Assembly: GCF_007990505.1 (NCBI RefSeq)
Contig: NZ_AP019822.1
Coordinates: 2,167,568-2,231,567, forward strand
DNA: 64,000 nucleotides
Origin: Pseudoleptotrichia goodfellowii
Lineage (GTDB): Bacteria; Fusobacteriota; Fusobacteriia; Fusobacteriales; Leptotrichiaceae
Reading direction: 5' to 3'
A model generated the notes under the pieces. The model did not search any database. It was not told the DNA's origin and saw nothing but the letters and a program-made list of their open reading frames with translations. The translations under genes and the position numbers were made by a program. Shown piece after piece: positions 29,481-41,971 of the stretch (positions within the stretch are counted from its first letter, which is position 1; the number at the start of each line of letters is the position of its first letter).

Positions 29481-30663
29481 TTATTTAACGATAGTTGCAA
29501 CAACTCCTGAAGCTACCGTTCTTCCACCTTCTCTTATCGCAAATCTTAATCCTTCTTCCATTGCGATAGGGTGTATCAATTCTACTGACATTTCTATATT
29601 ATCTCCAGGCATTACCATTTCCACTCCGTCAGGCAAGTTTACTTCTCCTGTTATATCTGTCGTTCTGAAGTAAAATTGTGGTTTGTATCCTGTAAAGAAT
29701 GGTGTATGTCTTCCTCCTTCATCTTTTGTCAATACGTATACTTCCGATTTGAACGATGTATGAGGTTTTACTGATCCAGGTTTTGCCAATACTTGTCCTC
29801 TTTCCACTTCTTCTTTCTTAGTTCCTCTTAACAATGCTCCGATGTTATCTCCTGCTTGTCCTGAATCCAATAACTTTCTGAACATTTCTACTCCTGTTAC
29901 TGTTGTTTTGCTGTAGGTTTGATTCCTATTATTTCCACTTCTTCCCTACTTTTACTACTCCTCTTTCTACTCTTCCTGTCACTACTGTTCCTCTTCCTGT
30001 TATTGTAAATACATCTTCTATAGGCATCAAGAACGCTTGGTCTACCGGTCTTTCAGGTGTAGGCACATAACTGTCTACTGCATCCATCAATTCCATTATT
30101 TTATCTTCCCATTGTCCTTCTCCGTTTAATGCTCCTAAAGCAGATCCTTTTACTATAGGTATTTCATCTCCAGGGAATGAGTATTCTGTCAATAATTCTC
30201 TTACTTCCATTTCTACTAATTCCAACAACTCTTCGTCGTCTACCATATCAACTTTATTCAAGAATACTACTATATAAGGAACTCCAACCTGTCTTGCAAG
30301 CAAGATGTGTTCTCTTGTTTGAGGCATAGGTCCGTCAGCTGCAGAAACTACCAATATAGCTCCGTCCATTTGTGCAGCTCCTGTTATCATGTTTTTTACA
30401 TAATCCGCGTGTCCCGGACAGTCAACGTGTGCATAGTGTCTGTTTGCTGTTTCATACTCAATGTGAGCCGTGTTAATTGTTATTCCTCTTTCTCTTTCTT
30501 CAGGTGCCTGATCTATGTTTTCAAAATCTACTTTTTCAGCCAATCCTTTGTCAGATAATACTTTGGATATAGCTGCTGTCAATGTTGTTTTCCCGTGGTC
30601 TACGTGTCCTATAGTTCCAACGTTTACGTGTGGTTTACTTCTCTCAAATTTAGCTTTTGCCAT
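29481..30663 (-). pseudogene. tuf: EF-Tu (tuf), split by two single-base deletions
   Basis: The 5' part (30663-29929) encodes the GTPase domain and the start of domain 2 ([34 protein letters not shown]), ending abnormally as VVKVGKKWK. The 3' part (from 29885) continues [20 protein letters not shown] to the normal end VVATIVK. Adding one G to the GGG at 29944-29946 and one A to the AAAA at 29906-29909 restores [20 protein letters not shown] and a protein of exactly 394 residues. EF-Tu is essential, so either there is another tuf copy or these are sequencing errors; two lesions in homopolymers 35 bp apart favour errors. Confidence 0.93.
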
Positions 30664-34239: not shown

Positions 34240-34497
34240 TAGAACCATTTATTTGTTATATCCTTTTTCAAAAAATCAAAATTCTCTAAAAAAATAATCT
34301 TTTTTTCCTGTTCTTAAATTTATAATACTTTCTTTTTTACTTAAAAAAATATTTTTTCTTTTAATTCTGTTTTTCTAATCTCTTTAAAAAATTCTTCTTT
34401 TATCCTCAAAAAACTCTTTTGTTTTTTTATTTCTATAATTTTCTTCTGCTGTTCTATGACTTTCTGGTGATACAGTTAAAAAAATTATTATTTCCAT
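34240..34497 (-). pseudogene. Degenerate coding remnant after the ACP-pyrophosphatase gene
   Basis: An ATG at 34497 overlaps the upstream stop region (TAATATG), as for a coupled gene, and reads MEIIIFLTVSPESHRTAEEN and on for 37 codons before a stop. Coding-like sequence then continues in other frames (KEEFFKEIRKTELKEKIF, then LSKKESIINLRTGKKDYF), each switch lying at T-runs. Product not recognised. Likely the decayed next gene of the acyl-activation cluster, or a frame-damaged sequence. Confidence 0.35.
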
Positions 34498-34498
34498 A

Positions 34499-35044
34499 TT
34501 ATTTCTCCATTATTATTTCTGTCTTAAAAAATCTTTCTTGAAACTCCACAAGAGCTTCTATTTGATCAATAGAATATTTTTTATCCTCCGCAGTAACAAT
34601 TAATTTATTTTCTATATCATCTATTCTGTAAATTATCGCCCGACATACTCCTTCAAATTCTTCTAATGGATCAAACTCCCCTAAAATATAAACATCTATT
34701 TCTTCACCGTCTTCACTTTCAGTATTAGGAATATAACCATAATTTAAAGAATAAATATATCCGTATTCCGGATGTTTATCTCCTAATTTTCTATCTACTT
34801 TCACTTTTATTTTTTGATTTAGATAATTTTTATAATTTAATAACTTCCTTTTTTTTATTATTTCAATAATTCGATTTATTGAAGAAAAATTTTCAAAAAT
34901 TAAATCTTCATCATCAAATTTTATTTTATAACTTTCTTCTAAATCTGCTATTAATCTTATAAATTCTAATGAATCTACTATAATATTTTCTTCATCATCT
35001 TTTATTTTGTTTTTTTTCAGTATTTTTAATATACTCTTTTTCAT
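34499..35044 (-). CDS. Acyl carrier protein domain fused to inorganic pyrophosphatase
   Basis: 181 residues. Residues 1 to about 66 are an acyl/peptidyl carrier domain with the phosphopantetheine-attachment serine in VDSLEFIRL (Ser25). Residues about 73-181 match small inorganic pyrophosphatases of the KHPEYGYIYSLNYGYIPNT / EDGEEIDVYILGEFDPLEEF type, with LVEFQERFFKTEII at the end. The gene follows, by five bases, the tail of an AMP-forming ligase. A ligase that loads the carrier releases pyrophosphate, so a carrier with its own pyrophosphatase would pull the reaction forward: inference from domain logic. I know of no described system built this way. Confidence 0.75.
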   Translation of the reverse strand: MKKSILKILKKNKIKDDEENIIVDSLEFIRLIADLEESYKIKFDDEDLIFENFSSINRIIEIIKKRKLLNYKNYLNQKIKVKVDRKLGDKHPEYGYIYSLNYGYIPNTESEDGEEIDVYILGEFDPLEEFEGVCRAIIYRIDDIENKLIVTAEDKKYSIDQIEALVEFQERFFKTEIIMEK

Positions 35045-35049
35045 TTCAT

Positions 35050-35205
35050 TTACACCTTTCTTTTAATTTTGCCAGTAACCGTTCTTTCAAATCTTTTTAT
35101 AATTTCTATTTTGTCCGGTATCTTATAACTAGAAAATTTAATTTTTAAATCATTTAAAACTCTATCTTTTCTTATATTATTTCCACCTTCTTTTCTATAT
35201 AATAA
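35050..35205 (-). pseudogene. C-terminal remnant of an AMP-forming acyl ligase
   Basis: 51 codons without a start, beginning immediately after the stop of the upstream gene: LLYRKEGGNNIRKDRVLNDL, then KIKFSSYKIPDKIEIIKRF, then ERTVTGKIKRKV. The SYKIPDKIEII and TVTGKIKRK motifs are the C-terminal A9/A10 region of acyl-CoA synthetase/adenylation domains, with the catalytic lysine of A10. The N-terminal 400-odd residues are missing, evidently replaced by the adjacent unknown gene. Confidence 0.8.
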
Positions 35206-36161
35206 TTATTTTTCGTCATCATACCCGCTTTTAGGAGGAGTGTATATTGATAATTTTATTAAAACCTCCTCTTCATTATAATACGGCTTAATTTTTTTTC
35301 TTATCTTTTCCAACTCTTCTTCTGTAATATTTTCAAACTCAAACTCTACTATCGGTCTCAGTTCGTTATATTTTTTAAACTCTTCCCAGTCTATCTCTTC
35401 AAATTTTCTCTTTTTTGAAAAATATTTTTCCAGTTTCTTTCCGTACTGTTCTAAAAATTGAAATTTATCTTCTTCTTTTATTTTTTTCTTATAAAACAAA
35501 AAAGTATTACCTGCATTTGTAGATTTTTCAACATTTTCATTATAAAACTGTAATTCCTGTAAATACTTATCATAATTATTGTACCAATCTCTTCTTCTAT
35601 GTATCTTAACATCTTTATAACTGTCAAATATCTTTTCTATCTCCTGAAAATCATTTCCTTTTGATTTATCATATAAAAGCTCATTTAATACGTACTTTCT
35701 GAACTCCAATCTGTCCATGACTGCAAGAAGTAGAGATAATCTTTCTTTTTTATAATAATCGTCAGGATTTTTTTCTCTTAAAAAAGCTCCGTTTGCACCA
35801 TTTTCAACAATTAAAATATTTTCATATTCAGGTTTATTAGTATAAAGATATTTTGATTCGTAAGTTATCCATCCCTTTTTTTCATTATATAACTGTTAGG
35901 AGAACGTATCCCTCCGCCTCTCAGCAGATTAACGTACTCGACTTCATACTTTTCTTTATCCATTGACAGATTATAGTCTTTTTCAAATATTTCCGTTACA
36001 AGATCAAAATACTCTTCTATTTCCTGTTCTTTTTGTATTTCTCTTTTTTCCTGTTTTTTTTCTATTATATGGCTTATCAGTAACAACGAAGAAATCGTCA
36101 ATATACACGATGAAAGTATCATGGATAATATAATAATTGTAAGTATTTTTAAAAATTTCAC
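35206..36161 (-). pseudogene. Frameshifted copy of unknown membrane/lipoprotein family
   Basis: Two consecutive open frames form one gene. From 36161 the first encodes an N-terminal hydrophobic segment with a lipobox-like MILSSC and ends as YIMKKRDG. The second is open from 35882 or so and continues GWITYESKYLYTNKPEYENI through MDRLEFRKYVLNELLYDKSK to the end. Adding one base to the run of seven T at 35876-35882 joins them into 318 residues, collinear with the 321-residue neighbour (shared YDKTKGNDFQEIEKIFD, FSKKRDFE-IDWYEFKK). Function unknown. Frameshift may be real or a homopolymer error. Confidence 0.75.
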
Positions 36162-36191: not shown

Positions 36192-37157
36192 CTACCACAC
36201 TGCAACAAGCTCTTTCTCCTTATCTTTTCCCGATCTGAAGTTTTTTTCAGGGTATCCGACAAGAACTACTGTCAGTTCTTTATCGTTATAATATTTTTTT
36301 ATTTCATCTCTCATTTTTTCCAATTCTTTCTTTTCGGCATTATACACTTCAAAAATTATAACAGGATGAAGATTATTGAATTTTTTAAATTCATACCAGT
36401 CTATCGTTTCAAAATCTCTCTTTTTGCTGAAATACTGACTGAATCTGTTTCCGTATTCTTTTAACTTTCTTAATGAATATCTTCCTTTTTTATCTTTTTC
36501 ATCGGAAATTCCGCATTCTTCGTCTTCAACAAAAAGCATAGACCCCTGTCTTACATTATTTTTGACTGTTCCGCAATCCCACACAGGATACTGAGAATAA
36601 TAATAAATTTTTCCTTCTTTATAATTATCGAATATTTTTTCTATTTCCTGAAAATCATTTCCTTTCGTTTTATCATACAAAAACTCATTAAATATATAGG
36701 GTTTGAAGCCGAATGTTTCTATCATTTCCAATAAAAATCCCGATCCCGGTTCTTCAAGAAGATGTTCTTTATTTTCAAAAACCGAATTTACTTCAGACCA
36801 TGAATGTACTAAAATATAGTCATTACTCGGTGTAATCATATATGTGTTACTTTTTTCCTCTTTTTCTTTTGAAAAATATTTTGATTTATATTTTTCTTTT
36901 TCCTTTTTTTTCATTATATAAAAATCATAACCTTTAGCTATACATCCGCCACAGGATTGTCCTTTATATTTTACCGTGTATTTATCTTTATCTATTATCA
37001 GATTATATTTTTCTTTCAGCTTTTTTATTTCCGAAGCATATATTTCTTTCGCTTTGCTGTCTCTGTTCAGACCTAAAACTATATTATACATCGACATTGC
37101 AATCAGAATAAATCCAATAAAAAATGCAAAATATACTTCATTTTTACTTACTTTCAT
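36192..37157 (-). CDS. Unknown membrane-anchored protein (paralogue of 35206-36161)
   Basis: 321 residues, not recognised. One membrane helix (about 8-28), then a polar exported or cytoplasmic body. Features are a short Cys pair motif GQSCGGC near 70, IMKKKEKEKYKSKYFSKEKE, and the shared block FNEFLYDKTKGNDFQEIEKI at about 180. Tandem with the frameshifted paralogue, 30 bp apart; the pair arose by duplication. Downstream of a secreted protein gene with an 18-bp gap, so probably co-transcribed. Confidence 0.7.
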   Translation of the reverse strand: MKVSKNEVYFAFFIGFILIAMSMYNIVLGLNRDSKAKEIYASEIKKLKEKYNLIIDKDKYTVKYKGQSCGGCIAKGYDFYIMKKKEKEKYKSKYFSKEKEEKSNTYMITPSNDYILVHSWSEVNSVFENKEHLLEEPGSGFLLEMIETFGFKPYIFNEFLYDKTKGNDFQEIEKIFDNYKEGKIYYYSQYPVWDCGTVKNNVRQGSMLFVEDEECGISDEKDKKGRYSLRKLKEYGNRFSQYFSKKRDFETIDWYEFKKFNNLHPVIIFEVYNAEKKELEKMRDEIKKYYNDKELTVVLVGYPEKNFRSGKDKEKELVAVW

Positions 37158-41083: not shown

Positions 41084-41971
41084 TTAATCTTTCTGCAATT
41101 CGCTGACAAAAGTTGCTCCCAGTATGAGTATTCCTCCGATGACAGTATATATATCCGGTTTTTCTTTCAAAAAAAATGTTGACAGAAAAATGGCAACTAT
41201 AGGATCTATATAACTGAAAATAGCTATTGTCTGTGCTTTCAGCTCTTTTATCGAAGAAAAATAAAGACTGTAAGTTATTCCTGTATTTAAAATCCCGACA
41301 ATAAGTAACAATACTATCGTTAAAAAGTCAAAAGACAAATTTCCGAAATTTTGTGTAACAGCAGTGTACGGAAGTAAAATCACCGCCGCAATACCTATCT
41401 GCATTATAGTCATTCCGTAAGAAGATATATTTTTCAAATGTTTGTTAAGCAATATCACCGTTGCATAAATTATTGCAGCACCTACTCCGAATAATATTCC
41501 TTTTATCTGGAGATTTTCAGTTCCTCCCTCTTTAAAAATACCCGAAACAAAAATCATTCCTGTCAATGCAGCTATTACGCATATTATTTTTTTTGAAGAA
41601 AGTTTTTCTTTCAGTACAAAAGGCGAAGCTATGATTATAAATACAGGTGCCAGATAATAACATAAAGTAGCAACAGCAACGGTTGTATGGTGATATGCTT
41701 CAAATAAAAATATCCAGTGAATCCCGATTAACATACCCGATAATGATAAAATCGGAAAATTATTTTTTATTTCCGAAAAAGAGATTTTTATTTTTTTGAT
41801 TTTAGTAAAAATCAGAAGAAATCCTGTTCCGATTATACCTCTTGCCAATGCAATTATACTTGACGGCAAAGGAATATGCTTTACAAATATTCCTATGGTT
41901 CCGAATATAGTCATTGCAACTATAAGCCTTATTCTTGCATTCGCTTCTTCTGTTTTTCCCTGTCTGTTCAT
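41084..41971 (-). CDS. EamA/DMT family transporter
   Basis: 295 residues with ten predicted helices in two EamA repeats (ARGIIGTGFLLIF...PVFIIIASPFVLKEKLSSKK and GITYSLYFSSIKELKAQTIA...FLSTFFLKEKPDIYTVIG). RhaT/YdcZ-like drug or metabolite exporter family; substrate unknown. Preceded by a gap without clear promoter. Confidence 0.88.
   Translation of the reverse strand: MNRQGKTEEANARIRLIVAMTIFGTIGIFVKHIPLPSSIIALARGIIGTGFLLIFTKIKKIKISFSEIKNNFPILSLSGMLIGIHWIFLFEAYHHTTVAVATLCYYLAPVFIIIASPFVLKEKLSSKKIICVIAALTGMIFVSGIFKEGGTENLQIKGILFGVGAAIIYATVILLNKHLKNISSYGMTIMQIGIAAVILLPYTAVTQNFGNLSFDFLTIVLLLIVGILNTGITYSLYFSSIKELKAQTIAIFSYIDPIVAIFLSTFFLKEKPDIYTVIGGILILGATFVSELQKD

Follow-up and report, generated by a model that had tools for sequence, protein, structure and literature searches.

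The window, a 64,000-nucleotide stretch within a closed 2.29-Mb genome (G000:C1:2167568-2231567), contains on its minus strand an open reading frame (ORF) in which an acyl carrier protein (ACP) domain is joined to a small pyrophosphatase (PPase). The frame is open over all 181 codons, and the ribosome-binding-like sequence AAAGGTG is found immediately 5' of its ATG. The ORF is flanked by remnants of two other genes, and this small region is shared with one other genome (G009) from another genus of the same family, Leptotrichiaceae. The features are as follows:

34429..35213, no strand assigned: block common to the window and G009, with 97% nucleotide identity; the sole strong match between the two neighbourhoods
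34429..34497, minus strand: initial ~21 codons of the gene for a B12-binding radical SAM protein (MEIIIFLTVSPESHRTAEEN), the rest being lost; matches the G009 fragment
34499..35044, minus strand: ACP-PPase fusion ORF, 181 aa, the coordinates taking in the stop codon
34502..34846, minus strand: small pyrophosphatase domain, residues 67-181; PF00719, PPase fold
34847..35044, minus strand: ACP domain, residues 1-66; PF00550, ACP fold
34970-34972, minus strand: codon of Ser25, the carrier serine of the ACP domain
35050..35190, minus strand: C-terminal (A10) remnant of an AMP-forming ligase, whose frame reads EGGNNIRKDRVLNDLKIKFSSYKIPDKIEIIKRFERTVTGKIKRKV up to a stop codon; truncated upstream

Both parts of the fusion score above the Pfam cut-offs, and both are well-folded in the AlphaFold2 model of the 181-aa protein (mean pLDDT 87.3, pTM 0.80; Foldseek matches with E down to 3e-6). 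In this model, the last ACP helix (56-72) continues straight into the PPase, and there is therefore no linker between the two domains. The ACP-PPase joint is real and rare. It constitutes a rare new domain pair within a decayed, transferred operon fragment, and no description of such a fusion was found in the titles and abstract openings of the literature searched. A phage-defence label for the fusion was rejected, as no PADLOC match was obtained. A promoter scan returned about as many sites as chance alone would give.

The ACP part is recognized by the PP-binding family (PF00550) at residues 23-61, with 22.6 bits against a cut-off of 20.8. The carrier serine, previously read from the motif VDSLEF, is confirmed, with 'IIVDSLEF' placing it at residue 25. 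There, the D-S-L motif opens helix II (residues 25-39 in the model). The Pfam alignment reaches only positions 29-65 of the 67 of the profile because loop I, located before the serine, is short; two ACPs from a different radical SAM cluster (L162) have a longer one. Residues 1-69 superpose on the Plasmodium PfACP (3gzl; Z 9.8, rmsd 1.7 Å, 67 residues) in a region of the model with pLDDT of about 67-85, a match that carries moderate weight because the fold is helical. The nearest NCBIfam model is that of the cispentacin ACP AmcB (NF058660), with 32 bits, under its cut-off of 80. The ACP is probably intact and can be considered a putative carrier.

The PPase part matches the Pyrophosphatase family (PF00719) at residues 80-170 (26.7 bits, cut-off 23.5). 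Residues 73-181 superpose on the E. coli PPase (1faj; Z 10.2, rmsd 2.7 Å, 107 residues), and many family I PPases superpose similarly (Z about 10, 2.5-2.7 Å, 105-107 residues). It is a member of a divergent ~112-aa subfamily, for which no characterised member was found; all 44 members of the set compiled (A3) match the Pyrophosphatase family, with E up to 0.01. The fusion keeps every position that is invariant among its 43 relatives, namely D84, R85, G88, H91, P92, Y98, N101, Y102, G103, P106, D112, D117, R140, and K147. The classical catalytic set used for comparison comprises E. coli E20, K29, E31, R43, D65, D67, D70, D97, D102, and K104. In HMM alignments to solved PPases, D112, D117, and K147 correspond to E. 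coli D65, D70, and K104, E114 and E145 stand at D67 and D102, and K29, E31, and R43 have no clear counterpart. Of the 'complete small pyrophosphatase core' announced earlier, the PF00719 match and the family I fold are confirmed; some classical catalytic residues appear to be missing in the sequence alignment. Hydrolysis of pyrophosphate (PPi) is the likely activity predicted for this domain.

The small ~112-aa PPase is also a frequent fusion partner elsewhere, as additional sequence is present in 35 of the 133 distinct ORFs (for example L060, L061, L066, L104, L107, L109, L114, L118, L123, L129, L141, L144-L148, L154-L159, L206, L208, L214, L217, and others). Reading by eye, the partners are mostly VOC/bleomycin-resistance-like, NUDIX, GNAT, or GrpB/UPF0157 domains, along with TmrB-like kinases, histidine phosphatases, and PNPOx-like proteins. 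The true substrate of this fusion-prone enzyme may be other than plain PPi. In two large Clostridiales genomes, the small PPase is joined to an immunity-like domain (L211:1611-2288 and L212:9128-9805), with seemingly immunity-type genes around. Two candidate ACP-PPase fusions from Clostridiales (G1172 and G1154) were rejected, their N-terminal part being an unrelated immunity-like domain.

On the 5' side of the fusion, the ligase remnant ends with KFSSYKIPDKIEIIKRFERTVTGKIKRKV and a stop codon located five bases before the fusion ATG, the very distance given in the earlier note, and is truncated upstream near the end of the gene 35206-35718. Taken alone, this tail is weak (AMP-binding_C, E=0.085 in Pfam; best NCBIfam ligase model, E=2e-4). 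Its identity as the end of an AMP-forming ligase is nevertheless settled by the homologous G009 copy, which carries an A7-type motif ('WLKTGDIGYFNEKKDLILLGR...GFQMCPEEI') at the expected position, and where the DNA runs further upstream into ILFEKKWLKTGDIGYFNEKKDLILLGRKNNIIKNRGFQMCPEEIS, the ligase A7-to-A8 region, with a frameshift in between. Of a complete A1-A10 adenylating enzyme, there remain the A10 tail in the window and a frameshifted A7-A10 portion in G009. The ligase body is therefore indeed lost at the locus, as had been proposed. It had also been proposed that the fusion should occur with a ligase in another genome: G009 does carry it beside a ligase remnant, but offers no intact ligase. 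The genes 35206-35718 and 36192-37157, both on the minus strand, share the motif NE(F/L)LYDK(S/T)KGNDFQEIEKIFD and match no Pfam family above the cut-off. They resemble tandem paralogues, the former being possibly broken at its start.

On the 3' side, the radical SAM remnant of the window shows 95% identity over 21 residues to a longer fragment in G009, where the B12-binding radical SAM protein following the fusion extends over ~150 residues, with one stop and then a truncation. The nearest NCBIfam model for this fragment is TIGR04013, below its cut-off. Of the two hallmarks, a B12 domain and a CxxxCxxC core, the second is found in neither copy, as the window holds 21 codons and the G009 fragment ends before the core.

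Over the 788-bp block, the DNA of G000 and G009 shows 97.1% identity, and the fusion proteins share 97% aa identity, compared with 75-79% identity for the family II PPase gene region, taken as background. Outside the block, the neighbourhoods do not match. The block has therefore moved between genera, since its 97% identity contrasts with a background of ~79% and nothing else nearby matches. In both genomes, the fusion ORF alone is open, with broken ligase and radical SAM pieces. As these remnants occur in the same order in both genera, the ancestral order would be ligase - ACP-PPase - radical SAM. In G009, the block abuts 29 codons from the start of an EamA transporter gene (L013:10267-10353, frame read by eye). 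An EamA gene that is intact and starts similarly is found in the window itself (41084-41971, minus strand). Also in the window, the EF-Tu frame appears split into two minus-strand ORFs, 29481-29885 (134 aa) and 29929-30663 (244 aa), pointing to a frameshift or a sequencing error in tuf.

The differences between the two copies are few. The ACP part shows 3 nonsynonymous and 0 synonymous changes, so that selection on the ACP is not visible in these small numbers, and the PPase part shows 3 nonsynonymous and 3 synonymous changes (dN/dS 0.25, also on small numbers); for the whole ORF, dN/dS is 0.48 on 9 changes. Read in the ligase frame, all three differences in the ligase tail are synonymous (Tyr TAT/TAC, Pro CCG/CCA, and Val GTT/GTC), which, on equally small numbers, points to a ligase under selection when the copies parted. 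Judging from these sequences, the ligase was probably intact until recently.

The genome of the window also encodes a stand-alone small PPase paralogue (G000:C1:1755051-1755404), with 88% aa and 92% DNA identity to the fusion PPase and a dN/dS of 0.20 relative to it (12 synonymous and 10 nonsynonymous changes). Upstream of it lies a frameshifted ligase tail with 78% identity, and the paralogue has an ATG and a ribosome-binding region that correspond to those of the ACP. The simplest reading is that the ACP was lost in frame between two A-rich stretches resembling each other, an ancestral absence of the ACP being a possible alternative. As a decayed ligase tail precedes this paralogue, whose start codon matches that of the ACP, ligase-ACP-PPase is the simplest ancestral order.

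The fusion occurs in 2 of the 98 Fusobacteriia genomes, G000 and G009 only. Within the family, intact stand-alone small PPases are encoded by G001, G013, G018, G040, and G044, and decayed pieces are found in G002 and G011. A family II PPase is present in 32 of the 33 family genomes, G000 and G009 included; since all but one possess it, the small PPase would be accessory. A Leptotrichia PPase match (L005/L006) that seemed to extend into the ACP was rejected as a chance alignment, as it runs through stop codons.

Searches with the fused protein covered 98 Fusobacteriia, 341 sampled Clostridia, and 226 Clostridiales genomes, and these about 660 genomes yielded no other ACP-PPase fusion or intact operon. 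Part of the search for intact operons relied on a profile of the PPase plus the radical SAM protein (A2), and covered these two proteins only. The functional version expected by the earlier note in relatives was thus encountered in none of the 98 Fusobacteriia, sampled Clostridia, and Bacilli, and its suggestion to look for PP-binding/small PPase fusions elsewhere led to none beyond G000 and G009 in the genomes searched. Scanning GTDB contigs with the PPase alignment gave at least 417 relatives, the best 80 of which were inspected for ORFs and contain no ACP fusion; when these best 80 of at least 417 loci were searched by tblastn with the ligase and ACP pieces, no adjacent ligase or ACP was revealed. 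Scanning IMG/VR viral contigs with the fusion gave no relative, and a PLSDB protein search gave PPase-part matches only, none covering 80% of the query. Such absence is no proof, because the samples represent a small part of the known species.

Relatives of the radical SAM protein provide another view of the PPase. Full-length proteins in L125 and L152 share 35-40% identity with the G009 fragment. No NCBIfam model recognizes the full-length relatives at its cut-off; their sub-threshold matches include BchE and ladderane-type models. A stand-alone small PPase lies within about 4.5 kb of this radical SAM subfamily in 8 of the 11 genomes with strong matches, the hosts of such pairs being distant gut Clostridia and Bacilli. 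In L125, the radical SAM gene is directly followed by the PPase gene; in L152 and L193, the order is radical SAM, histidine phosphatase, and PPase. These clusters hold a SPASM-type radical SAM protein, kinases, and a methyltransferase or phosphorylase, with no adjacent ACP or ligase in clusters of the L125, L152, and L193 type. In G1266, a type II thioesterase and an Sfp-type phosphopantetheinyl transferase (functions read from sequence) are encoded ~6 kb away from a radical SAM relative, and in G304 a more distant relative is located near two ACPs. Carrier-linked and carrier-free settings therefore both exist for this enzyme type.

The recurrent neighbourhood of gut Clostridia and Bacilli-like MAGs (L125:3459-8333, L152:8854-12689, L193:579-4372, and L194-L201) is of interest in its own right. 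Its SPASM radical SAM protein shows a weak similarity to viperins (PADLOC pVip, E about 1e-14), and its second, B12-type radical SAM protein matches PDC-M51A (E 9e-19). Small kinases, a CYTH-like protein, a methyltransferase, a histidine phosphatase, the small PPase, and an MTAP-like phosphorylase or HprK-like protein complete the set, which is possibly a nucleotide-modifying pathway.

As far as gene remnants allow one to judge, the locus is very probably a horizontally moved, recently broken fragment of a small biosynthetic operon encoding an AMP-ligase, the ACP-PPase, and a B12-binding radical SAM enzyme. In the intact operon, the ligase would adenylate a carboxylic acid, giving acyl-AMP and PPi, and the acyl group would be loaded onto the phosphopantetheine arm of Ser25. 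The joined PPase would hydrolyse the released PPi, driving the loading forward, and the radical SAM enzyme would modify the carrier-bound substrate or a later product. Today, with the ligase and radical SAM enzyme gone and no ligase partner at the locus, the fusion would be at most an accessory pyrophosphatase, the separate family II PPase presumably being the housekeeping enzyme of the cell. The pull step in itself is plausible but tentative, and may well not hold. It is reduced to one reading by the carrier-free radical SAM/PPase clusters, the fusion of the PPase to unrelated enzymes, and the ACP-less paralogue, and is further weakened because the PPase subfamily appears to lack some classical catalytic residues. 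Taken as a whole, the explanation by a relic operon with a pull step stands at an even balance between right and wrong.

Because the radical SAM subfamily sits beside stand-alone PPases in loci devoid of ligase or ACP, the PPase may instead belong to the radical SAM pathway, or house-clean a phosphate or nucleotide product, the joint to the ACP being incidental, with the ACP as a passenger and the PPase alone kept. This is a serious contender, somewhat short of an even chance, to which nearly the same weight is given as to the pull mechanism. It accounts for the 8 of 11 genomes pairing the two genes, the other domains joined to small PPases (35 of 133 distinct ORFs), the paralogue without an in-frame ACP, the exclusively nonsynonymous ACP changes, and the direct junction of the domains without a linker. 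It does not readily explain why both copies keep the ACP frame, the carrier serine, and the predicted four-helix fold, and no intact source was found either in which ACP and PPase are separate genes beside a ligase.

The whole fragment could also be dead, its ORF being open merely for lack of time since the transfer and deletions. The broken flanking genes of the operon in both genomes, the whole-ORF dN/dS of 0.48 between copies on 9 changes, and the decayed (G002 and G011) or absent small PPase genes of relatives agree with this. It is nonetheless unlikely, given a PPase ORF that is open in three separate decayed contexts, PPase dN/dS values of 0.16-0.25, the retention of every invariant PPase position, and a plausible ribosome-binding site 5' of the ATG. 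Far less probable is a mobile cassette with defined ends carrying the ACP-PPase as cargo: a sharp 97% block does occur in two unrelated places and is joined to an EamA transporter gene start in G009, but the two copies do not share the same end points, each end consists of a remnant of an operon gene, and flanking direct repeats, terminal inverted repeats, and a recombinase were looked for and not seen.

Returning to the relic operon with a pull step, PPi is usually removed by a general cytosolic enzyme. A carrier equipped with its own pyrophosphatase would, if true, constitute a built-in irreversibility of the adenylation step, and such a 'self-pulling' carrier could find use in the engineering of carrier-based pathways. 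That it destroys the PPi of its own loading, and that ligase - ACP-PPase - B12 radical SAM remains intact in some oral Leptotrichiaceae, is a speculative and rather doubtful conjecture. Were the fusion incidental, the locus would still display a pathway seen mid-decay, with one ORF surviving its partners, and point to an unnamed radical SAM and small PPase neighbourhood in gut bacteria.

Compared with known systems, the ACP part shares with type II ACPs and PP-binding domains (PF00550) the DSL carrier motif, the helix II signature DSLEFIRLIADLEESYKIKF, and the predicted four-helix fold, but differs by its short loop I and by the pyrophosphatase located directly after helix IV. With family I soluble PPases (PF00719; E. 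coli 1faj/1i40), the PPase part has in common the fold, the NYGYI and DG..xD motifs, and the K104-type lysine. In contrast, it is about 112 aa long instead of ~175, has Glu for D67 and D102 in the HMM alignment, and displays a DR..G..HP motif specific to its subfamily. The ligase remnant shares with the ANL superfamily (PF00501/PF13193) the A10 motif in both copies and the A7-type motif in G009, but, being a C-terminal fragment only, cannot yield an enzyme. The radical SAM fragment has in common with B12-binding radical SAM proteins an N-terminal B12-type domain.
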